The position numbers and the translations under genes are program-made. A DNA stretch of 46,104 nt, from NCBI GenBank assembly GCA_021781555.1, contig JAJXWQ010000001.1:71392-117495 (forward strand). The letters run 5' to 3'. The stretch comes from a bacterium. GTDB taxonomy: Bacteria; Cyanobacteriota; Sericytochromatia; S15B-MN24; VGJW01. Position 1 is the first letter of the stretch, and each line of letters begins with the position of its first letter. The notes beneath the pieces are model-generated. The model worked only from the letters and a program-made list of their open reading frames with translations, searched no databases and was not told the DNA's origin. Shown here piece after piece: positions 15,510-27,042 of this stretch.

Positions 15510-16208
15510 CTATTCGCGCACGAAGCGATAGCCGAGGCCGCGGACCGAAAGGAGGTGGCGCGGGCGGGCAGGATCGGGCTCCAGGATCCGCCGCAAGCGC
15601 ATGATGAAGTTGTCGACGGTACGCGTGTTGACCGGCCCCTCGAGACCCCAGGCGTACACCATGAGCTCCTCGCGGGAGACCACCTTGCCCTCGCGCTCGG
15701 CAAAACAGCGCATGACGGCAAACTCGAGTGAGGTGAGCTTGGCGGGAACCCCCGCGATGGTGGCCTCGGCGCGTTCGAAGTCGAGGCTCACCTGGGCGAA
15801 CTCGAGCCGGATCGGTCCCGCGCTGCGCGCCCGATCCCACTCGCGCCGACGCAGCAGGCCGGAGACCCGCGCCAGCAGCTCCTCGAGGTTGAATGGCTTG
15901 GTGACGTAGTCGTCGGCCCCCACCTGGAGGCCGTGGATCTTGTCCTTGTCGAAGTTCTTGGCCGTCAGCATCAACACGGGCACGAAAATGCCCTTCTTGC
16001 GGATGGCCCGGCAGACATCGAACCCCGACAGGGTCGGGAGCATCACGTCGAGCACCAGCAGGTCGAAGCCGCGCTGCTGCGTCGCAACCAGGTCGTAGGC
16101 CACCTGGCCGTCGCCGACCACCGCCACGTCATGCCCGTCGAGTTCGAGGTTGAACTTGAGGCCGTTCGCAATGTGCGCCTCGTCCTCGACGACCAGGATC
16201 CGGGCCAT
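15510..16208 (-). CDS. OmpR/PhoB-family response regulator
   Basis: A 232-residue DNA-binding regulator. The receiver domain has the acidic pocket (VVEDE), phospho-acceptor Asp54 in LVLDVMLP, a Thr in LMLTAKN and Lys104 in DDYVTKPF. The winged-helix output domain follows (LTSLEFAVMRCFAEREG, NTRTVDNFIMRLRRIL and GLGYRFVRE). It begins 5 bases after the histidine kinase stop, so the two form one transcript and a cognate pair. The divergent sugar locus upstream of the kinase is a plausible target. A family label beyond OmpR/PhoB is not safe. Confidence 0.95.
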   Translation of the reverse strand: MARILVVEDEAHIANGLKFNLELDGHDVAVVGDGQVAYDLVATQQRGFDLLVLDVMLPTLSGFDVCRAIRKKGIFVPVLMLTAKNFDKDKIHGLQVGADDYVTKPFNLEELLARVSGLLRRREWDRARSAGPIRLEFAQVSLDFERAEATIAGVPAKLTSLEFAVMRCFAEREGKVVSREELMVYAWGLEGPVNTRTVDNFIMRLRRILEPDPARPRHLLSVRGLGYRFVRE

Positions 16209-16213
16209 CGGAA

Positions 16214-17266
16214 TCAGGGCCTCGGGTCCGCGGCGGGCGCGCCAGCGGGGGAATCCGAAGCAGAGCCCTCGGGGCCCTGGCCGCCCGGTTCGCCTGCCCG
16301 AGCCTTCGTGGCTGCGTCGCGCCGGCGCGACTCCGGCCGGTTGCGGGGCTCGCGCAGGGTCAGCACGAAGGTGCTTCCGAGGTTGTCACCCGGACTCATC
16401 GCCTCGATCTTACCGCGCATCTCGCGCACCATGACCCGAACGAGGTAGAGACCGAGGCCGGTCCCCTTGCGGGTCCGGGTAAGCTCGTTCCCCAGACGGT
16501 AGAAACGGGTGAAGATGCGCTTGAGCTGGGATCTGGGGATCCCCACGCCCGAATCGCGCACGCGGATCGCGACGTCGCCATCGGAGGTCCGGCTGCCGAG
16601 GATCAAGATGTCGACCTGCCCTTCTCGCGAGTACTTGATGGCGTTCTCCACCAGGTTGTACACGACGATCTCGAGTGCCGCCGGATCTGCCTCGACGACG
16701 AGGTCGGGCATCATGATGCGGATGGAATCGCCCGCCAGACCGTAGCGTCGCCGCGCCAGCGCAACCATGCTGGCGACCAGAGGCGCGACCTCGACGCGCT
16801 CCAGGTGATACTGGCGCCCCCGATGCTCGGCGCGACCGGCCTCGAGCAGGCGCTCCACGAGCCCCTGCAGCCGCTCGACGTCATCGCTCATCAGGACGTG
16901 GAATTCCTGGACCTTTTCCGCAGGCAGGTTGCGCAGGCGCAGCGTATCGAGGTGAAGCTTGAGGCTGGTGAGCGGGCTCCTGAGCTCGTGGCTCACCGCG
17001 TCGAGGAAGTTGGTCTGCCTCTGGTTGTCGCGGATGAGGCGAGCCTGGCCCACGATGAACAGGATCAAGCCCGTGATGACCAGGCCGAAGAGGACCCCGC
17101 CCCCGATGACGAGGAACCACTGCGCCACGCCCAGTCTGCCCGCCTGGCGCAGGCTGTAGGACACGACGGTGAGGATCCAGCCAACCGTCAAGGCCAGGAC
17201 GATGACCACCAGGGTCACGCCCATTGCGATGTAGGGTCCAATGGACTGCGGTCGCGAACGCGCCAT
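16214..17266 (-). CDS. Sensor histidine kinase, almost no extracellular domain
   Basis: A 350-residue kinase. Two membrane helices (about 12-35 and 49-73) are joined by only about 13-15 residues, so it likely senses within the membrane or through another protein. No clear HAMP domain is seen. The dimerisation domain carries phospho-acceptor His93 in DAVSHELRSPL. The ATPase domain has an N box (NLVENAIKYS), G1 (RDSGVGIP), an F box (FTRFYR) and G2 (GTGLGLYLV). A charged Ala/Gly/Pro-rich tail of about 40 residues follows. It is the first gene of the kinase-regulator operon and diverges from the GH36-like gene by 146 bases. Confidence 0.93.
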   Translation of the reverse strand: MARSRPQSIGPYIAMGVTLVVIVLALTVGWILTVVSYSLRQAGRLGVAQWFLVIGGGVLFGLVITGLILFIVGQARLIRDNQRQTNFLDAVSHELRSPLTSLKLHLDTLRLRNLPAEKVQEFHVLMSDDVERLQGLVERLLEAGRAEHRGRQYHLERVEVAPLVASMVALARRRYGLAGDSIRIMMPDLVVEADPAALEIVVYNLVENAIKYSREGQVDILILGSRTSDGDVAIRVRDSGVGIPRSQLKRIFTRFYRLGNELTRTRKGTGLGLYLVRVMVREMRGKIEAMSPGDNLGSTFVLTLREPRNRPESRRRDAATKARAGEPGGQGPEGSASDSPAGAPAADPRP

Positions 17267-17412
17267 CAGGCGCCCAACCTATCGCAGCAGGAGCCGATAG
17301 CGCAAGTGCACCTTGTCGAAGCCGGACTGGACGCGCTGCCACCCTGCTTGAGAAGCGGCGCCCGCTCCTGATACGCTTCCGGCGATCCCGCACCCGACCA
17401 GGAGCTCCGCTT

Positions 17413-19644
17413 GTGCGCAGCCTAGCCATCCCCATCGTCCTCGCCTCGCTGACCACCGCGCAGGGTGCATTTGCGGGCGCGAATGCCGCGCCAGACCGCA
17501 CCCTGGCCGGACTGGCGCGCGGGGGTCTCACCCTCGGGGGACCTGGCGTGGCAAGCGTCGCCCTGCATCTGGCCAGTGGCCACGAAGCTACCGGTAGCCT
17601 CAGTCCCGCCGGCCACCAGTCCGGGGGACAGGGTGCGGGAATGTTCGTGGCCTCACGCTATGACCTCATCGGCGCCATCGACCGGATCGCCACGGCCTCC
17701 TTGACCCTCACCAGCTACCCGGCCGAGCAGGTCACGGTCGCCTCGCTGGATTACGACGGGCCAGCGCTGGCCGCGCGAGACGCGATAGCCGTGCGCATGC
17801 ACCTGCCGGGCTTCGCCCGCGGGATGGCCATTCACCGCCTGGCACCCGGATCCGCGGCTCCGGTCTGGACCTCCGATTACCGGAGCCTGCCGCCCGACAA
17901 TCTCATGCTGGTCTGGGAGCGCACCCATCGCATCGAGTACCAGCTGCTCGCACCCCTTGCCGGCGGGGGCCTGGTCGGGTCCGTCGGAGTTCGGGGGTAC
18001 GAGTTCGGCATCACGATGAGCGCAGGCGCAGTCACGCTTGGTCATCACGTGCCGCTCTTCGTCTTTGCCACGGCATTGTCCCCCTACCAGCTCACCCGCA
18101 AGGCCTACCAGATCGCGTTCCGGGACGCGGGCTTCTACGGCAGGCTCCGCTGGGAGAAGGGCTATCCCGACGCCTTCACACGGCTGGGCTGGAGCTCGGC
18201 GCCGGCCTACTCGGACGTCACGGAGGCCGACGTCCTGGATGCCGCGCGCGCGTTTCGTTCGCGCGGCCTGCCCCTGGGCTTCGTGCTCCTCGGCGATGGC
18301 TGGTTGACCGTCCAGGATCGGCGCCTGGCCGGCTTCGGGGCAGCGCTGTCACGCTTTCCGGACGGCCTGCCCGGTCTGGTCCGCAAGCTCCGCATGGGCT
18401 TGGGAGTTCGCGACGTCGGCGTCTGGCACCCGCTCGCTGGCTACCGGGACGGTGTCGACTCCCGCTCGGCGATCGGGAAGGCACATGCCTTGCTGGCGGC
18501 CGCCCACGGCGCCTACCTGCCCGATCCGCAGGGCGATGCGGATTTCTTTGCTGACTGGTACACCCAGCTCGGCCGCGGGGGCGTGGACTTCGTCAAGGTG
18601 GGCGATCAAGCCGGCCTGGCAGCCTTCACGTCCGGCGTGATGCCGCTGTTCGACGCCGGGCAGGGCGAACTCCGCAACCTCGAGACGGCAGCGGTTGGCC
18701 ATTTCGGCCGGCTGGGCGGCGTCAACCTGCTGTGCAGCGGGGATCTCGCTCTCGAAGCCGCCTACAACTGGCACTATGCCGATCTCGCCCGGGCCAGCGA
18801 GCCCCTCGGGCCGCAAGGCTCGGACGGTGTCAAGGATCGCATCATGCAGGATGTCTTCGACTCGTACTGGCTGTCGAACTTCGCCTATCCAGATTACGGA
18901 AGCTTCCGGTCGGCCGCTCCGGAATCACGGTTCGAGGCGATCGCCCATGCCATCAGCGGAGGTCCCGCCTACACCTCGGACATCCCGGGCACCGAGAACG
19001 TACCCCTCTTGCGCAGCCTGACGCTGGCCGACGGCACCGTCTTGCGCGTCGACGATCCGGGCTTGCCGGCGCGGGACAGCCTGCTATCCGATCCGGCCGT
19101 GACAGCGGCCCCCCTCCTGGTCTGGAGCCAGGTCCGCAGGCCGGGGCAGATCTGCGGCATGGTGGCGGCCTTCAACGTCGACAAGGGCCTCTGGCGCGAG
19201 GACGGCGCCGTGAAGCCAGCCGATGTCGACCCGATGGCGCCCTTTCCGCAACTCGCCCGATTCGCCGTATACGACGCCAACGCGCGCACGGTCCAGGAGG
19301 TCACGGGGCCAGCCTCCAAGGTCAAGTTCTGGCTGCCGGAGATCGGGGCGGATATGTTCACGATCGCCCCCATCTCCGCGGGCACGGCGTGTCTCGGTCT
19401 GCTCGACAAGCTGGTCGGCCCTGCTGCCATCGTCGCCGTCTCGCACCCGGCCGGTGGGATCGCGGCGACCTTGCTGCAAGCAGGGGATGTCGGCTTCTAT
19501 CTCCAGACCCCCCCGGCAGCGGTCCGGGTCGCGGGCACGCAACTCCCGGAAACGGCCTATGGCTATGACGACCACCTGCTGGTGATCCCGGCGGCAGCCT
19601 TCAAGAATGTGTCCGGACCTGTCCGCGTCCGGGTAAACTTCTAG
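17413..19644 (+). CDS. Secreted GH36 / raffinose-synthase-like glycosidase
   Basis: A 743-residue exported protein. A signal peptide (RSLAIPIVLASLTTAQGAFA) is followed by a beta-rich N-terminal part and a TIM-barrel region resembling the raffinose synthase/Sip1 branch of GH36 alpha-galactosidases: SSAPAYSDVTEADVL, GFVLLGDGWLT, VGVWHPLAGY, VDFVKVGDQ, MPDW-like YPDYGSF and AISGGPAYTSDIPG. Family members carry the nucleophile as K-[VLY]-D; here it reads K395-V-G397-D398-Q, so the Asp is absent or shifted by one. An Asp in QGSDG (D471) could be the acid/base. The start is GTG with AGGAG eight bases before it. The symporter downstream suggests a sugar product. Confidence 0.75.
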   Translation: MRSLAIPIVLASLTTAQGAFAGANAAPDRTLAGLARGGLTLGGPGVASVALHLASGHEATGSLSPAGHQSGGQGAGMFVASRYDLIGAIDRIATASLTLTSYPAEQVTVASLDYDGPALAARDAIAVRMHLPGFARGMAIHRLAPGSAAPVWTSDYRSLPPDNLMLVWERTHRIEYQLLAPLAGGGLVGSVGVRGYEFGITMSAGAVTLGHHVPLFVFATALSPYQLTRKAYQIAFRDAGFYGRLRWEKGYPDAFTRLGWSSAPAYSDVTEADVLDAARAFRSRGLPLGFVLLGDGWLTVQDRRLAGFGAALSRFPDGLPGLVRKLRMGLGVRDVGVWHPLAGYRDGVDSRSAIGKAHALLAAAHGAYLPDPQGDADFFADWYTQLGRGGVDFVKVGDQAGLAAFTSGVMPLFDAGQGELRNLETAAVGHFGRLGGVNLLCSGDLALEAAYNWHYADLARASEPLGPQGSDGVKDRIMQDVFDSYWLSNFAYPDYGSFRSAAPESRFEAIAHAISGGPAYTSDIPGTENVPLLRSLTLADGTVLRVDDPGLPARDSLLSDPAVTAAPLLVWSQVRRPGQICGMVAAFNVDKGLWREDGAVKPADVDPMAPFPQLARFAVYDANARTVQEVTGPASKVKFWLPEIGADMFTIAPISAGTACLGLLDKLVGPAAIVAVSHPAGGIAATLLQAGDVGFYLQTPPAAVRVAGTQLPETAYGYDDHLLVIPAAAFKNVSGPVRVRVNF

Positions 19645-19767
19645 AGAATCGTCCATTCGGGGCATCACGCCCGAGAGGGGCCCGGACGACCGTATTGCAG
19701 CACGCCGCACCCGCCTGGCCTGCTCGCGAGAAGCGCCTGGCGGGCCGGGGATCGAGAGGACGCAGCC

Positions 19768-21405
19768 ATGCACGCGCACTGGATCGACTACGCCGTCCTG
19801 GCCGTCTACACGGCATTCGTGCTGGGCATCGGCCTGGTACTGCGCAAGAGCGTCCACACCTCGGATGACTTCTTCGTGTCGGGCAGGCGGATCCCGGGCT
19901 GGGTGACCGGCCTGGCCTTCCTGTCGGCCAACCTGGGGGCCCTCGAGGTGATGGGAATGGCCGCGAACGGAGCCAAGTACGGTGTGCTTGCCGCACACTT
20001 CTACTGGATCGGGGCGATCCCTGCGATGGTGTTCGTCGGCGTGTTCATGATGCCGTTCTACTACGGTAGCAAGGCCCGCAGCGTCCCCGAGTATCTGAAG
20101 CTCCGCTTCGACGAGAAGACCCGGGCCCTGAATGCCATCTCTTTCGCCTTCATGACGGTCCTGGCCTCCGGCATCAACATGTTCGCGATGGCCAAGGTCT
20201 TCCAGATGCTGCTCGGGTGGTCGATGGACGCCAGCATTCTCATCTCCGCCCTGGTCGTCCTCGGTTACACCATCCTCGGCGGCCTGTCCTCCTCGATCTA
20301 CAACGAGGTCCTGCAGTTCTTCCTCATCTGCTTCGGTTTCGCTCCTCTGGTGGCGATCGGGCTCCACGACGTCGGCGGCTGGAAGGGCCTCGTGGCCCGG
20401 ATGCCTCCGGGCTTTTCGCACGCCTGGGCCGGTCTCGGTGCGGCGTCGACCAACCCGATGGGAGTCGAATGGCTCGGAATGGCGATGGGCCTCGGCTTCG
20501 TCCTCTCGTTCGGCTACTGGTGCACGGACTTCCTCGTCGTCCAGCGGGCCCTGGCGGCCGAGGACATGACCGCGGCGCGCAACACCCCCCTCATCGCCGC
20601 ACTGCCCAAGGCACTCTTCCCGTTCCTGGTGATCGCACCGGGCCTGATCGCCATCGCCCTCACCCTGCATCCCCTAACCGGCACCGCTCCGCTGCTACAG
20701 AAGCTTCCAGACGGCACCTACGACTACAACAACGCCCTGCCCCTCTTGCTCGAGCGCTATTACCCCTCCGGCATGCTGGGCCTGGGCCTGACAGCGCTGC
20801 TGGCATCCTTCATGAGCGGCATGGCGGGCAACGTCACGGCCTTCAACACGGTCTGGACCTACGACCTGTACCAGGCCTACATCCGCAAGGGCCGATCCGA
20901 CGCCCACTACCTGAAAATGGGCCGGTTTGCCACGATCGGCGGCATCGTGCTGTCGATCGGCGCAGCCTACCTCGCCATGCACTACAACAACATCATGGAC
21001 TACATGCAGTTGCTGTTCAGCTTCTTCAACGCGCCGCTGTTCGGCATCTTCCTGCTCGGCATGTTCTGGAAGCGAACGACCGGCCACGGCGCGTTCTGGG
21101 GCCTCTTGATGGGCACGCTGGCGGCCTTCGGACACTACATCTTGACCCAGCTGGGCGTTCTCCACTACCCCAGCGCCATGGCTGCCAACTTCTACCAGGC
21201 GATCTACGCCTTTTCGGTGTGCTTCGTGGCCGGCATTCTCATCAGTCTCGCGACCCGGCCGCGATCGGACTTTGAGCTCGAAGGCCTGGTCTATAGCTTG
21301 ACCCCGCGAATCCGGGACGACCGGGCTCCCTGGTACCGCCGGCCGGCCATCCTGGGCGCCGGAGTGCTGGCCGTGGTCGTCGTCCTCAACATCCTCTTTT
21401 GGTGA
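19768..21405 (+). CDS. Sodium/solute symporter (SSS family, SGLT-like)
   Basis: A 545-residue membrane protein with 13-14 helices. Family marks are SDDFFVSGRRIPGW near the N-terminus, the SSS signature region GGLSSSIYNEVLQFF and the SFGYWCTDFLVVQRALAAED block, close to vSGLT. Sugar transport driven by sodium is the best guess; myo-inositol or organic acids are possible. ATG at 19768 has GAGAGGA about 8 bases upstream. The location 123 bases after the secreted GH36-like gene supports uptake of its product. A repeat copy follows the stop. Confidence 0.88.
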   Translation: MHAHWIDYAVLAVYTAFVLGIGLVLRKSVHTSDDFFVSGRRIPGWVTGLAFLSANLGALEVMGMAANGAKYGVLAAHFYWIGAIPAMVFVGVFMMPFYYGSKARSVPEYLKLRFDEKTRALNAISFAFMTVLASGINMFAMAKVFQMLLGWSMDASILISALVVLGYTILGGLSSSIYNEVLQFFLICFGFAPLVAIGLHDVGGWKGLVARMPPGFSHAWAGLGAASTNPMGVEWLGMAMGLGFVLSFGYWCTDFLVVQRALAAEDMTAARNTPLIAALPKALFPFLVIAPGLIAIALTLHPLTGTAPLLQKLPDGTYDYNNALPLLLERYYPSGMLGLGLTALLASFMSGMAGNVTAFNTVWTYDLYQAYIRKGRSDAHYLKMGRFATIGGIVLSIGAAYLAMHYNNIMDYMQLLFSFFNAPLFGIFLLGMFWKRTTGHGAFWGLLMGTLAAFGHYILTQLGVLHYPSAMAANFYQAIYAFSVCFVAGILISLATRPRSDFELEGLVYSLTPRIRDDRAPWYRRPAILGAGVLAVVVVLNILFW

Positions 21406-21427
21406 GCCGCGTGCCACGAGGCCCGTT

Positions 21428-21516
21428 CCTCTTGCCGTCTGGACGCCCTCCTGCGCGGTCGCTGCGCTGCGCCACCGGGCCCCGTTTGACTCCCTGGACC
21501 CGATCCTGCCCAGGCG
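21428..21516 (+). repeat. Palindromic repeat, diverged copy 5
   Basis: The core CTGCGCGGTCGCTGCGCTGC, then CCACCGGGCCCCGTTTGACTC and TGGACCCGATCC, is well kept. The left arm is eroded (TTGCCGTCTGGACG) and the right end has lost the CAAACCGGGAGC and CTAG parts. It separates the symporter from the small membrane protein. Confidence 0.75.
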
Positions 21517-21567
21517 AAACGGCTCCGGTCTGTTCCATCGCCCCGTGTTTCGAAGGATGACCACCTG

Positions 21568-21819
21568 ATGCTCGATATCCGCATTCCCATCTCGGCGCTC
21601 TTCCTGGGGGTCGGAGCGCTCCTGGCGTTCTACGGCGCTTTTTTCCACCCATCGACGCCCGCCACCGCGAACATCAACCTGGACCTGGTCTGGGGTCTGG
21701 TGATGTTTTTCTTCGGGCTCGGCATGGGTGCCTGGACCTGGCGGTCAAGGCGTAGCGGCGACGCGATCGAGCGGCGGATCCCCGCGGATCGCGAAAAGAC
21801 CGCGGCTCGGTCCCGATGA
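21568..21819 (+). CDS. Small two-helix membrane protein
   Basis: An 83-residue protein with two predicted helices (about 8-28 and 40-58) and a basic, polar tail. GAAGGA about 10 bases before the ATG and a coding-like third-position GC pattern support it. Small proteins of this layout beginning M-L-D-I-R-I-P are often found beside SSS symporters, which suggests an accessory role; that is inference from position. It converges on the coiled-coil gene with 34 bases between. Confidence 0.75.
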   Translation: MLDIRIPISALFLGVGALLAFYGAFFHPSTPATANINLDLVWGLVMFFFGLGMGAWTWRSRRSGDAIERRIPADREKTAARSR

Positions 21820-21853: not shown

Positions 21854-24800
21854 TCAGCGCGGCCGCCGCTTGCGCTGGGTGTCTTCCTCGGCCCCCGGAG
21901 CCGTGCGGCCCACGAGGCGTCCCCAGAGGTCGATCGGCTTGCCATCCGAGGTGTCGACAGGTCCGACCGCCGGAGCCTGAGGCGGGATCGGGGGTCGGGC
22001 GGGCGAACTGGCCGCCGCGTTCGGGGGCGGAGCCGACGTGACCGGACGGGGCGTCGCAGCTGGCGCAGAAGGCATGGCGCCTTTCCCCTGGCGGACCAGG
22101 TGCATGACCATCTGCTGAAGCTCCGAGTTCTGCGCCTTGAGGCGCTCGACCTCCTCGAGGGTGCGAGCGTCGGACTTGCCGATGGTGCTGTGCAGGTTCG
22201 AGAGGAGCTGGATCATGTGGTACTGACGCTGCCCGAGCCGCGTATTCTCTTCCTTGAGCTCTTCGACCTGGTCGTGGTAGGTTCGCGCCTGCTGCGAGAT
22301 CTGATCTCGGGCCGAGTCGAGATCCTGGTAGAGCTGGTTGATGAGCGCGGTCTGTTCTTCGCGGATCACCGCCTGCACGGCCTCGATCGCCGACTTCACA
22401 TCAGCCACCTGCCCATCGCCACGCTCGACCTTGATGCGCAGCGTATCGAGGTCGTTCGTGACCTGCCGGCGCAAGGTCTCGATCGTCTCGGCGGCATCGA
22501 GCTTGCGCTCCAGATTCGCGACGCCCTGGCGCTGCTGCATCTCGGCAGCGTCGAGCTTGCGCTGGAGATCCTCGGCGGCCTGACGCTGCTGCGTCTCGGC
22601 ACGATCGATACGGTGATGCAGGCCGTCCTGGCTGCTCTTCAGGTCTTCCAGCCGCCCGGCCAGGCTGGCCAGATCCCGGAGCTCATCCTTGCGCGCCCGA
22701 AGCTCGAGATGGATCCGATCGATCTCGGCTCGGCGGTCCGTGGCCTCGCGATCCAGGATCCCCTCGACCCTGCGGATGGCGCCCTGCGAGTCGTCGCTGA
22801 CCTCCCGCAAGGCTCTGCGGAGATCGCCCTGCGCTTCGATCTGCGACTCCCAGCCGCTCCGGAGCCCGGCCAGGGCACCATTCAGCCGCTCCTCGGCCAG
22901 GCTCTGGTCGGAGATCCAGTCCTCGATCTTGCGCGCGAGATCCTCCACGCGATCCGATAACCGCACGAGGCCCTCGGTCGTCTTGCCCTCGGACTGCTTG
23001 ACCTTGAGCGTGGCGTTGGCGAGTTCGTTCTCGATGTCGTGTTTGAGGTCATGGATCTCGGTGAGGTCGTGCTTGCGCGCATCCTGCAAGCTCTCGAATT
23101 GCTCGAGGACCTCCTTGAAGGTCTCCCGCATGCCGCCCACGATGGATTCCGTGCGCGTCTCGGACTCGCCCATCAGATCGATCAGCCGCCCGAAGACGCG
23201 ATCGCCCTCTTTTTCCACCAGGGCCTGGACCTCGCCCTTGGTCACGAGCACGTCGCCAGGCTTGACGCTCCGCAGCCGGCCGTCGGACTCGCCGCGGACT
23301 TCAGCTTGACCCCGGCGGGCCGCTTCGGGCACCGCAGCGCGCGCCGTCCGCATGGCGACGCGATCCCGGTCCGCCCGGAAGGCCTCGATGTGGCTGGCGC
23401 GCTCGGCGGCCGCGGCGGCTCCATCCTCGGCCTGCGCGTCGATCACGCGAGCATACTCGAGCGGTTCTTGTTTACCCTCGGCCTCGGCCTCTACCAGCAG
23501 AGGCGGCCGGGGCGTCTTGCCCTTGTTCCAGAAGAGGCTGATCCCCCGCCGTCTGGCCGGCTCGAGAACAGCTTCGTCCGCTCCAGCGGAAGCGCTCTCC
23601 TCCGAGCCCGTGCGGGCCGCTGCGGGCGCGGCTCCGTCCTCGAGCTCGGATCCATCGGCCAGGCCGAGTTCAGGGGCATCAACCCTCTCGCCAGCGGCCC
23701 CGGCGAAGTCTTCCAGGCGGTCCACGGGACCCTCGATCTCATCCACCCACGCGGGCTCCGGGGCCACGGCTGCGGCGGGCTCCCGGGCTGGCTCCGGATC
23801 GGCATCTCCACCGAAAGCTGGATCCTGAGCACCGGCCAGAAGCCGAGGTTCGACTCCCACGGGATCGAGCTCTTGCCCCGGAGCGGACCCACCCTCGGCG
23901 CTCTCCGGCGCGAGGTCGAGGTCGCCTTCGTCTTCGGGGAAGAGCCAGTCTCGACCTGGCAAGGCTGCATTTGCCGCGTCCAGCTCCGCCGCATCCCCCC
24001 CCCTGGCTGGCCGGGGGTTCACGTCGAGCGACGGTCGGGCGACGCGCTTGCGCCTGCGTTTTTTCTTGAGCTCCGGGGCCTCGGCGAGCGCATCGAGATA
24101 ATCGACACGCTCCATCGCGAGGGGAGCCTCGGGCCTGCGACTCCGGCGCCCCAGAAGGATGATCCCGCCCAGGGCGATCCCGGATACCCCCAGAGCGAAA
24201 GGGATCACGATCCGCCGGCTCGCCGGGAACGCCGGCAGGCCCAGGCTGGCCAGCCGCTCGGGGGACGGCGGATCCGGCAGCGGCTTGGCGTCGGGCGAGG
24301 GGAAGAGCGAGCCCGTGAGCGTGGGCTCCCCGGCCGGCGCGCCCGGCATGCGGGTCACTACGACCAGGCCGGCAGGCTCCGATCGTGCGATCTCGAAATC
24401 GATCATCTGGCCGTCGCCACCGCCGCCGGCCGGATCCGCGGCGATCTGCAAGGAGCCTTGGGCCTGCGGTAGATCGCGTTTGAAAAGGGCGCTCTGGTCG
24501 GACGACAGGCCGTTCTGGCCCGCCAGCAAATGGCCACGGGCATCGAAGATCGCGGCCCCGTCCGCCTTCGAGAAATCCGGCAGCAGGGCGCCGATCTCCG
24601 CCAGCGGGACGGCCGTCCCGACCGCCGAGACGCCTCCGGGCAGCGCGTCGACGATCACCAGTTCGCCGTTGCGCACCTGGACCGGGTCTCCCCCGAGCGC
24701 CGCCCGGATGTCTCCGCGGGTCAGCAATGCCGTGCCTGACGGATGGTGCACGAGGTTGCCGTCGGGATCGCGCACGACGAGTTCGAGGGGCAGCCACTCA

Positions 24801-25090
24801 CCAGCCGGGCCGACGATCGCCGGCTGCCGGGAGTCAAAGCCGGCGGAACCGAGGCTTTCGGCCTGTCTCAGCCGGGTAACTATCGCCTGGATGTAGGCGT
24901 CGAGCCGATCCAGTACCTGCTGAGCATAAGGTTTCGAGACCGCCGAGGTTTCGGTGGACGAGGGGCTGGTCGCGACCGGAGCCGTGGCGGCCAGAGCCAC
25001 CCGGGGCCCGGCAGCATAGAGGACCCCGAGAACCAGAGGGGCCAGAGCCCAGCCTCCGGATCGGAGCAGGTCGCGTCGAAATCCAGGCAT
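21854..25090 (-). CDS. Membrane-anchored coiled-coil protein, unknown family
   Basis: A 1078-residue protein I cannot assign. An N-terminal signal or anchor helix (about 14-35) precedes an alpha/beta segment (50-250) whose start and end (VLDRLDAYIQAIVTRLRQAESL; a G-x-L/hydrophobic strand pattern, LAGQNGLSSDQSALFK) loosely recall Cache/PDC sensor domains. A second helix (293-314) is followed by a basic patch KKKRRRKR and about 250 acidic, low-complexity residues. Residues 615-1000 are almost continuous coiled coil with near-repeats QRKLDAAEMQQRQ / ERKLDAAET (830-870). The tail is Pro/Ala-rich and basic. It resembles a chemoreceptor topology but lacks the receptor signalling tip. ATG has GGAGG nine bases upstream. 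Its transcription unit appears to be single. Confidence 0.85.
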   Translation of the reverse strand: MPGFRRDLLRSGGWALAPLVLGVLYAAGPRVALAATAPVATSPSSTETSAVSKPYAQQVLDRLDAYIQAIVTRLRQAESLGSAGFDSRQPAIVGPAGEWLPLELVVRDPDGNLVHHPSGTALLTRGDIRAALGGDPVQVRNGELVIVDALPGGVSAVGTAVPLAEIGALLPDFSKADGAAIFDARGHLLAGQNGLSSDQSALFKRDLPQAQGSLQIAADPAGGGGDGQMIDFEIARSEPAGLVVVTRMPGAPAGEPTLTGSLFPSPDAKPLPDPPSPERLASLGLPAFPASRRIVIPFALGVSGIALGGIILLGRRSRRPEAPLAMERVDYLDALAEAPELKKKRRRKRVARPSLDVNPRPARGGDAAELDAANAALPGRDWLFPEDEGDLDLAPESAEGGSAPGQELDPVGVEPRLLAGAQDPAFGGDADPEPAREPAAAVAPEPAWVDEIEGPVDRLEDFAGAAGERVDAPELGLADGSELEDGAAPAAARTGSEESASAGADEAVLEPARRRGISLFWNKGKTPRPPLLVEAEAEGKQEPLEYARVIDAQAEDGAAAAAERASHIEAFRADRDRVAMRTARAAVPEAARRGQAEVRGESDGRLRSVKPGDVLVTKGEVQALVEKEGDRVFGRLIDLMGESETRTESIVGGMRETFKEVLEQFESLQDARKHDLTEIHDLKHDIENELANATLKVKQSEGKTTEGLVRLSDRVEDLARKIEDWISDQSLAEERLNGALAGLRSGWESQIEAQGDLRRALREVSDDSQGAIRRVEGILDREATDRRAEIDRIHLELRARKDELRDLASLAGRLEDLKSSQDGLHHRIDRAETQQRQAAEDLQRKLDAAEMQQRQGVANLERKLDAAETIETLRRQVTNDLDTLRIKVERGDGQVADVKSAIEAVQAVIREEQTALINQLYQDLDSARDQISQQARTYHDQVEELKEENTRLGQRQYHMIQLLSNLHSTIGKSDARTLEEVERLKAQNSELQQMVMHLVRQGKGAMPSAPAATPRPVTSAPPPNAAASSPARPPIPPQAPAVGPVDTSDGKPIDLWGRLVGRTAPGAEEDTQRKRRPR

Positions 25091-25391
25091 CGTCCCATTC
25101 CTCCGGGATCATACAGCCCCAGATCATAGCCCTTCGGCCACCTTCCGCAGTAGCCGCCATCACGATCCCCCGCGACCTCGGCCGAACCGTGTCGTGCTTG
25201 CGCCAGGGGCGGCCGGGATCGGGCAGTCGTCAAGGCAGCGTCAGTTGCTTGTCGTCGGGCGCGAGCACCCCTTGTGCACGGGCGATCTGGGCTCCTTGTA
25301 CCCAGGCCCGCAAAGGCCGCACCGACCGGGCTTTGCGTCGATCTTACGGAATGATTTCAGGGCCTCGGGCCGTGGCCCCAGGCGTCCCGCC
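25091..25391. other. Intergenic stretch with possible promoter
   Basis: No protein-like frame is seen in these 301 bases. On the minus strand two TATGAT hexamers (25108-25113 and 25123-25128) lie just upstream of the coiled-coil gene and could serve as its -10; no convincing -35 accompanies either. The rest shows nothing I can name. Confidence 0.4.
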
Positions 25392-25664
25392 TCACCTGGC
25401 TCCGAGGTACTCGCGGTAGAGGCTCGAGGTAAGTCGCCCGGCCTCCAACTCGGAGAGAGCCCAGCGAAATTCCTCGGGACCGTGGTCCCCCTCGACGCGG
25501 CACCGGCCACCGAGGACGAGGTCGAGTAGCCGAGATTGAGCCTCCTGGTCCTCGATGCGATCCTCGTCGAGGTCCCGACGGATATCCGCGAACTCCCCCG
25601 ACCGCGACACCTGGTAGGCCAGGTCCGCGAGGTCCGTCTGGTAGGTGCGCGTGATCTCCGGCAT
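25392..25664 (-). CDS. Small acidic hypothetical protein
   Basis: A 90-residue product (MPEITRTYQTDLADLAYQV...) predicted as mostly helical and acidic, with no signal or membrane segment. I chose the second ATG because AGAGGA lies about 9 bases before it; the frame could begin 7 codons earlier. Third codon positions are strongly G/C, as in the neighbours, which supports real coding. No family recognised. A link to the secreted-protein gene 119 bases upstream is possible. Confidence 0.6.
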   Translation of the reverse strand: MPEITRTYQTDLADLAYQVSRSGEFADIRRDLDEDRIEDQEAQSRLLDLVLGGRCRVEGDHGPEEFRWALSELEAGRLTSSLYREYLGAR

Positions 25665-25783
25665 CGCTCGGATTCCTCTCGTCATCAGCAGCCCCCCGCG
25701 CGGCCGTCAGTGGCGGACCTGCGATTGCTGGGTCTTCGTATCGTCCCACGAATTCGCGTCATCCGGACCTTCGCCGGCTGGCC

Positions 25784-26386
25784 TCAACCCGCTGGCCGCG
25801 GGCGGACGGTGCGTGCGGGACGGCCAGGGGCCCGGGCAGCCGGCCACTCCCTACGGGGCAAGCTGGCATCGCCGCGCCAGAACAGGGTACCCCAGGTCTG
25901 CTGCTCCACGCTCATGTACGAGTTGTCCGGCGACGTATCCAGACGCAGGCCGAGATCGAATCCGAGGTAATCTCCCGAGACCTCCCGGAGCCCGATCTGG
26001 GCCAGCGTCGTCCGCATCGTGTTGACCTCGTCCCAGAGGACCTTCAACGGGACCCGGCCCCCGTAGAACTCGTAGAAGAACCGCGAGATGATGCCCATCG
26101 CCACGGCATCCGGACGATCGGCGGGGAGTTCGACCTCGACCTGCTCCTTGACGATGCGATCGTCCACGAGGAAGACCCTGATGATCGTCTCGTAGCCGCC
26201 AAACCTGCAGGCGTAGAGCTGGCCGCCCTCGCCACCTGAGGGGACGAGGTGGAAGCCCGCGGCCAGCCGCTGCGTCGCGATCCAGCGCCGGAGGGTCGAG
26301 AAGGGCTCCCCACCCTCCGCCCGGGCCGGCCCGGCCTGGGCCACCAGGGCCGTGATGGCCACGCAGGCCCAAAGCCTGGCTCTCAT
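25784..26386 (-). CDS. Secreted hypothetical protein
   Basis: A 200-residue product with a clear signal peptide (MRARLWACVAITALVAQAGPA, cleavage after ARA) and a mixed alpha/beta mature part. No known domain is recognised, and the end is Arg/Pro/Ala-rich. Its ATG overlaps the nth stop as ATGA, so it is translated from the cinA-nth transcript. The open frame continues far upstream through nth in another frame, which I discard. Confidence 0.75.
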   Translation of the reverse strand: MRARLWACVAITALVAQAGPARAEGGEPFSTLRRWIATQRLAAGFHLVPSGGEGGQLYACRFGGYETIIRVFLVDDRIVKEQVEVELPADRPDAVAMGIISRFFYEFYGGRVPLKVLWDEVNTMRTTLAQIGLREVSGDYLGFDLGLRLDTSPDNSYMSVEQQTWGTLFWRGDASLPRREWPAARAPGRPARTVRPRPAG

Positions 26387-27042
26387 CCGCACCGCCGTTG
26401 ACCCTCCGGGCAGAGCCGCAGTAACGGGCAACGCGAGCACTCGGGGTTGCGGGCATGGCAGATCTCGCGGCCGTGATGGATCAGCCAGTGGTGGGCTTGC
26501 CCCCAAAGTTCGACCGGGATGCGCCGACGCAGCTGCTCCTCGGTCGACTCGGGAGTCCTGGCGGCAGCCAGGCCGAGGCGGTTGGCCACACGAAAGACGT
26601 GCGTGTCGACCGCGATCGCCGGGGTACCGAACGCGTTGGCCAGCATCACGTTGGCCGTCTTGCGGCCGACTCCAGGCAGCTCGATGAGCTGCTCGAAGGT
26701 CCCGGGGACCTTGCCCCCGTGCTGCTCGAGCAGGGCCCGGCTCGTGGCGACGATGCTGCGGGCCTTGCTCGGGCCCAGGCCGCACGAGCGGATCCAGGGC
26801 TCGAGCTCCTCGGGCTGCATCCTGGCGAAGTCAGCCGGATCGGAAGCCACCTCGAAGAGCCTTCGCGTCACTTGGTTTACACGTTTGTCAGTACACTGCG
26901 CAGACAAGATTACAGCAACAAGTAGTTGAAATGTTGTCTCAAACTCGAGCGCCGTACCGGCCCCACGGTAGGTCTCGGCCAGGATACGCAGGATCTCCTC
27001 CGTTTCCGGCGGGGGGACGCCCGGGGTCGGCGATCGGTCCAT
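26383..27042 (-). CDS. nth: Endonuclease III
   Basis: Nth is a base-excision glycosylase and AP lyase for oxidised pyrimidines. The 219-residue product holds the helix-hairpin-helix LPGVGRKTANVML with the catalytic Lys, the catalytic Asp in AVDTHVFR and four cysteines spaced C-x6-C-x2-C-x5-C at the end for a 4Fe-4S cluster. ATG at 27040-27042 (MDRSPTP) is chosen; upstream codons overlap cinA. It lies 13 bases after cinA and overlaps the secreted protein gene. Confidence 0.95.
   Translation of the reverse strand: MDRSPTPGVPPPETEEILRILAETYRGAGTALEFETTFQLLVAVILSAQCTDKRVNQVTRRLFEVASDPADFARMQPEELEPWIRSCGLGPSKARSIVATSRALLEQHGGKVPGTFEQLIELPGVGRKTANVMLANAFGTPAIAVDTHVFRVANRLGLAAARTPESTEEQLRRRIPVELWGQAHHWLIHHGREICHARNPECSRCPLLRLCPEGQRRCG

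Follow-up and report, generated by a model that had tools for sequence, protein, structure and literature searches.

The 46,104-nucleotide window, by which we mean the whole stretch of DNA analysed here, encodes a lineage-specific membrane protein of 1078 residues in which a Cache-like domain is joined to a scaffold instead of to a catalytic output. We propose, as a tentative model somewhat short of probable, that this protein spans the membrane as a Cache scaffold with no catalytic part, and that it recruits a neighbouring histidine kinase or modulates its activity; we infer this partnership from gene order only.

The window belongs to a genome assembly of 3.8 Mb in 181 contigs (G000). A search for photosystem reaction centres was negative in all genomes of its class (0/18), and the same search matched many genomes of other classes of the phylum as well as the control, Synechococcus elongatus. 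We therefore place the host among the non-photosynthetic Cyanobacteriota. A second photosystem-free family, with genomes of about 1.8-2.2 Mb, falls in another class and resembles the Vampirovibrionia; by exclusion, the class of the window genome is probably the Sericytochromatia, which have been described as lacking photosynthesis and are known from metagenomes (PMC8245535).

Results

The scaffold gene and its domain layout

The scaffold gene is a minus-strand frame of 1078 codons that starts with an ATG at 25090 and runs down to 21854. Its product is organised, in order, as a signal peptide, an external domain, one membrane helix, a disordered acidic linker, a coiled coil, a Pro-rich stretch and a short, basic C-terminal tail.

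21854..25090, minus strand: gene for the 1078-aa Cache/coiled-coil membrane protein (subfamily A)
25100..25104, minus strand: GGAGG ribosome-binding site, 9 nt ahead of the ATG (sequence)
24989..25090, minus strand: signal peptide, residues 1-34, with an A-L-A/A site (hydropathy; cleavage site predicted from sequence)
24341..24940, minus strand: predicted dCache-like external domain, about residues 51-250 (AlphaFold2 model, Foldseek, Pfam matches of paralogs)
24155..24211, minus strand: transmembrane helix, residues 294-312 (hydropathy)
24086..24103, minus strand: conserved juxtamembrane motif DYLDAL, residues 330-335 (ortholog comparison)
23261..24085, minus strand: acidic disordered linker, residues 336-610, net -20 (composition)
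23231..23260, minus strand: conserved motif PGDVLVTKGE at the coiled-coil entry, residues 611-620 (ortholog comparison)
22088..23239, minus strand: coiled coil, residues 618-1001, about 385 residues (hydrophobic periodicity; AlphaFold2)
21941..22087, minus strand: Pro-rich stretch, residues 1002-1050 (hydropathy, AlphaFold2)
21857..21940, minus strand: conserved C-terminal tail KPIDLWGRLVGR...RKRRPR, residues 1051-1078 (ortholog comparison)

This frame is a true gene, as is evident from its codon-position composition (G+C of 0.81 at position 3 vs 0.49 at position 2), from orthologs in four other genomes, and from purifying selection relative to the same-genus ortholog in G001. The first 720 residues of the G001 protein are 73% identical to the window protein, and the two genes differ at 119, 101 and 230 sites in codon positions 1, 2 and 3, respectively, which argues that selection acts on the protein.

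Hydropathy places the core of the signal peptide at residues 15-33 and the membrane helix at residues 294-312. The start of the signal peptide, FRRDLLRSGG (25061-25090, minus strand), is twin-arginine-like, and the RR is not kept in relatives. On the cytoplasmic side, a basic patch, KKKRRRKR, lies at about residues 342-349, and the linker (about residues 336-610) contains 57 D+E vs 37 K+R; its length ranges from 56 to 275 residues among subfamily A orthologs. Residues 615-1005 possess a 3.54-residue hydrophobic repeat with a power of 5.4 vs 1.7 at the 99% shuffle level, and the linker, tested in the same way, has none. AlphaFold2 predicts long helices at residues 618-700, 706-856 and 869-1001 of the coiled-coil part with modest confidence (pTM 0.23), and, again with modest confidence, a disordered protein end with a short helix at 1055-1059.

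Within the cytoplasmic part of subfamily A, conservation is highest in the tail, with 11 of 24 ungapped columns invariant vs 19 of 176 in the middle of the coiled coil. The consensus of the tail is [KR]PID[LF]W[GS]R[LF]xGR...RKRR (in short, PIDLWGRLxGR…RKRR), and a search of the window genome for a second copy of the tail core found none, making the core unique there.

The initial annotation had the coordinates 21854-25090 and the 1078 residues right and gave no strand, which is minus. The domain order that it proposed is borne out by hydropathy, linker composition, periodicity analysis and AlphaFold2. This includes its long acidic linker ahead of the coiled coil (net -20, residues 336-610) and its estimate of about 385 residues of coiled coil, for which the 3.54-residue repeat far exceeds shuffled controls and long helices are predicted. 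Structure prediction of the external part (dCache-like) and the coiled-coil part (long helices), which it had recommended, likewise agrees with this layout.

The external domain has a Cache-like fold

An AlphaFold2 model of the external domain, built from nine relatives, reached a core pLDDT of around 90. Searched against the PDB with Foldseek, the model yielded 34 matches at E<=1e-3, nearly all of them dCache sensor domains of chemoreceptors or kinases; the best was 6iou (E 5e-6), and one clear non-dCache entry, the PAS protein PpsR, was among them. The TM-scores were only about 0.4, partly because the query includes disordered ends. In profile searches, the window protein had no match to Pfam dCache_1, and members of a paralogous subfamily, described below, matched it with E-values of 2.3e-5 to 4e-3 (17-24.5 bits, below the gathering cutoff of 45); every one of these matches fell on the membrane-proximal end of that profile, which is the right part. 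A profile of the external domain searched against PDB sequences gave a weak lead to the chemotaxis receptor 9b9s (E 0.18), with which the fold search agreed.

We conclude from the modelled fold that the external domain is a divergent dCache-like domain beside the membrane helix. The suggestion of a possible Cache-like external domain is thus supported by Foldseek matches that are mainly dCache and by the weak dCache_1 matches of the paralogs. The HMM search for Cache domains that had been proposed as a check gave a divided result, with matches below cutoff for the paralogs and none for the window protein.

The protein belongs to no known family

A Pfam search with the whole protein found no family over cutoff and returned generic coiled-coil cross-matches only, such as SMC (23 bits vs a cutoff of 567, confined to the coiled coil); searches of NCBIfam and of PDB sequences yielded nothing beyond generic coiled-coil noise. 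Neither ATPase heads nor a full-length match to an SMC or structural coiled-coil family was found in the protein. Pfam also detected no MCPsignal domain, no cyclase output domain, and no HisKA or HATPase_c domain, the last two being present in the neighbouring kinase gene instead. Two earlier claims, that the protein is of no known family and that it is not a kinase, cyclase or chemoreceptor, therefore stand, and the reading of it as a sensor or scaffold fits a layout in which a Cache-like domain occurs without an output domain.

Subfamily A is present in 5/5 genomes of its taxonomic family, including the window genome. A phylum-wide profile search with the coiled coil and tail, covering 386 genomes, found it in 0/381 outside the family. 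A scan of genome contigs for the scaffold protein gave the same-genus relative alone.

Two relatives place the scaffold gene directly ahead of a histidine kinase

The neighbourhood of the scaffold gene in the window contains the following genes.

16214..17266, minus strand: histidine kinase with two membrane helices and a short loop (HisKA/HATPase_c, hydropathy; orthologs directly after the scaffold gene in G002 and G003)
15510..16208, minus strand: OmpR-type response regulator paired with the kinase (family by sequence inspection)
17224..21819, plus strand: raffinose-synthase-like gene, Na+/solute symporter and 83-aa ORF, between the scaffold gene and the kinase
25392..25685, minus strand: conserved 97-aa ORF just upstream of the scaffold gene (orthologs in G001 and G003)
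25784..26395, minus strand: small secreted protein, conserved in four genomes in the interval from nth to the scaffold gene (orthologs in G001, G003 and G004)

The gene order in G003 is cinA, nth, small secreted protein, 97-aa ORF, scaffold gene, histidine kinase and response regulator. The end of the scaffold gene and the kinase lie on the same strand and are separated by 19 bp in G003 and 39 bp in G002, which represent two other genera of the family. In the window, the order up to the scaffold gene is as in G003, and the kinase-regulator pair is found 4.6 kb downstream, past three opposite-strand genes. The raffinose-synthase-like and symporter genes also flank the kinase in G001 (L045), where the scaffold gene and kinase are probably parted by opposite-strand genes as well. 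The raffinose-synthase-like gene followed by the sodium/solute symporter (17224-21405, plus strand) was apparently inserted between scaffold and kinase in the window genus. The view that the scaffold gene stands alone thus holds locally in the window and fails in G002 and G003, where it directly precedes the kinase-regulator pair; it fails also in that the window keeps the pair 4.6 kb downstream and in that a paralog lies beside pilin genes in the same genome.

Neither of the small ORFs upstream of the scaffold gene (the 97-aa ORF and the secreted protein) had a Pfam match. The 97-aa ORF is 57% identical in G003, and its C-terminal half, inspected by eye, is a putative FlgM-type anti-sigma-like sequence.

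The kinase has a loop of about 17-32 residues between its two membrane helices, with HisKA straight after, and no separate sensor domain. The kinase-regulator pair (15510-17266, minus strand) is single-copy and class-wide, occurring in 15/18 genomes, and a scaffold gene ahead of the kinase, looked for across the class, was found in no genome outside the family. Because the pair is class-wide and lacks the scaffold gene outside the family, the kinase does not need the scaffold and cannot owe its existence to it; the family-restricted scaffold is rather a later addition beside an older kinase. Overall gene order is conserved within the family, so the adjacency could be inherited by chance. As a sign of partnership, the adjacency of scaffold and kinase genes is suggestive rather than conclusive.

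An ortholog lacking the Cache domain and a paralog beside pilin genes

The G004 ortholog (L012:1737-3524), of 595 aa, possesses the signal peptide, membrane helix, motifs, coiled coil and tail and is without the Cache domain, for which there is no room because the upstream gene stops 21 bp before the ortholog. Since the Cache domain was lost and the rest kept, the core of the protein seems to consist of its coiled coil and tail, and sensing appears dispensable in G004. This comparison of sequences suggests that scaffolding is the core function and sensing an input.

A distant paralog, subfamily B, has the same layout and is 795-1171 aa long where complete. It is found in G000, G001, G002, G003 and, in a shorter form, G009, with fragments in G001 and G002. 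The external domains of the two subfamilies match profile to profile (97%, E 9e-11), and subfamily B is without the subfamily A motifs. In related genomes subfamily B adjoins type IV pilin-like genes, and its cluster in several of them also has genes for a PMT_2-type membrane glycosyltransferase-like protein, an ABC1 kinase and a secretin. The 1171-aa paralog of the window genome (C44, L046:2481-5996, minus strand) has a prepilin-like gene next to it, as well as a membrane protein of the PMT_2 family. The G009 homolog was considered as a member of subfamily A and rejected, as it sits among pilin genes and is without the A motifs.

The type IV pilin and secretin genes beside the paralog in several genomes, and the retention of the scaffold without its Cache domain in G004, favour an alternative in which the protein is a cell-pole or envelope landmark like FimV/HubP or PodJ that organises motility or pilus machinery, the Cache domain being mostly an anchor or localisation cue and the kinase incidental. 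The topology is also FimV/HubP-like, with an external domain, a membrane helix, an acidic cytoplasmic region and a conserved C-terminal module (PMC12918733). However, LysM and TPR were not matched in the scaffold protein and subfamily A itself is not beside pilus genes, and we regard a landmark role as possible but doubtful.

Discussion

A model for the scaffold protein and its client

If the protein does recruit or modulate the kinase, it would cross the inner membrane once, with a dCache-like sensing domain on the outer side and a scaffold without enzymatic function in the cell. Binding of a ligand, or docking of a periplasmic partner, would shift the membrane helix; the acidic linker would give flexible spacing, oligomerisation and the setting of distance would fall to the coiled coil, and a client would dock on the conserved C-terminal tail. 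The likeliest client would be the two-membrane-helix histidine kinase (16214-17266), acting via the adjacent response regulator. No ligand motif was found, which counts against this model, as does the absence of the Cache domain from the G004 relative. Signalling by rigid helix movement, as in chemoreceptors, is unlikely because the long disordered linker parts the membrane from the coiled coil; recruitment and local concentration are the more plausible means of control, as reported for PodJ and PleC (PMC8980812). A broader and rather unlikely extension is that the protein represents a new class of detached sensory input, in which an output-free Cache scaffold would give both signal and location to a sensor-less, class-wide kinase through its coiled coil and C-terminal peptide, the paralog being the equivalent for a pilus system.

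Alternatively, the protein might be a structural envelope filament or spacer that takes no part in signalling, its Cache-like domain being a degenerate relic. The signature R-x-W-[YF] marks amino-acid binding by Cache domains; it was sought in residues 1-340 of all subfamily A and B members and is absent. This absence, the loss of the Cache domain in G004 and the lack of any enzymatic part are consistent with a relic, but the Cache domain is slow to diverge between species (83% identity vs 57% for the linker) and the DYLDAL motif and the tail indicate specific partners, making a purely structural role improbable. A ligand sensor for chemotaxis, joining chemoreceptor arrays via its coiled coil without a signalling tip, would suit a fold typical of chemoreceptors (Foldseek) in genomes that encode them (3 to 15 MCPsignal matches each), but is very unlikely for a protein that has no MCPsignal match, beside whose gene no chemotaxis genes were noted, and whose long disordered linker would not pass on rigid helix motion.

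Comparison with known systems

FimV/HubP proteins, which comprise a periplasmic domain, one membrane helix, an extensive acidic cytoplasmic region and a conserved C-terminal module (PMC12918733), are the closest topological analogues, and the scaffold protein shares with them a membrane helix followed by an acidic cytoplasmic region. It differs in having a Cache domain rather than LysM, and a coiled coil and short tail rather than TPR (the FimV domain); Pfam found neither a LysM-like periplasmic domain nor a C-terminal TPR in it.

PodJ, a coiled-coil membrane scaffold of Caulobacter crescentus that also contains a disordered region, recruits the histidine kinase PleC and regulates it (PMC8980812). 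The scaffold protein is likewise a membrane scaffold with a coiled coil and a disordered region, its link to a kinase being gene adjacency in two relatives only, and no sequence relation to PodJ is detectable in Pfam or NCBIfam. The cytoplasmic coiled coils of PodJ are N-terminal and its periplasmic part is unrelated to that of the scaffold protein. Unlike the scaffold protein, PodJ thus has the reversed domain order and no Cache domain.

Like dCache chemoreceptors and histidine kinases such as Mlp24 and HK1S-Z16, the scaffold protein has a dCache fold on the outside, with a membrane helix after it; unlike them, it continues into a long acidic linker and a coiled coil instead of an MCP, kinase or cyclase output. 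Cache domains are normally found on one polypeptide with a kinase, a cyclase or a chemoreceptor tail; this one is attached to a scaffold, alongside a kinase that has no sensor domain. Should the partnership prove real, sensing would fall to one protein and catalysis to another, and the pair would provide an early handle on signalling in non-photosynthetic cyanobacterial relatives that are known mostly from metagenomes.
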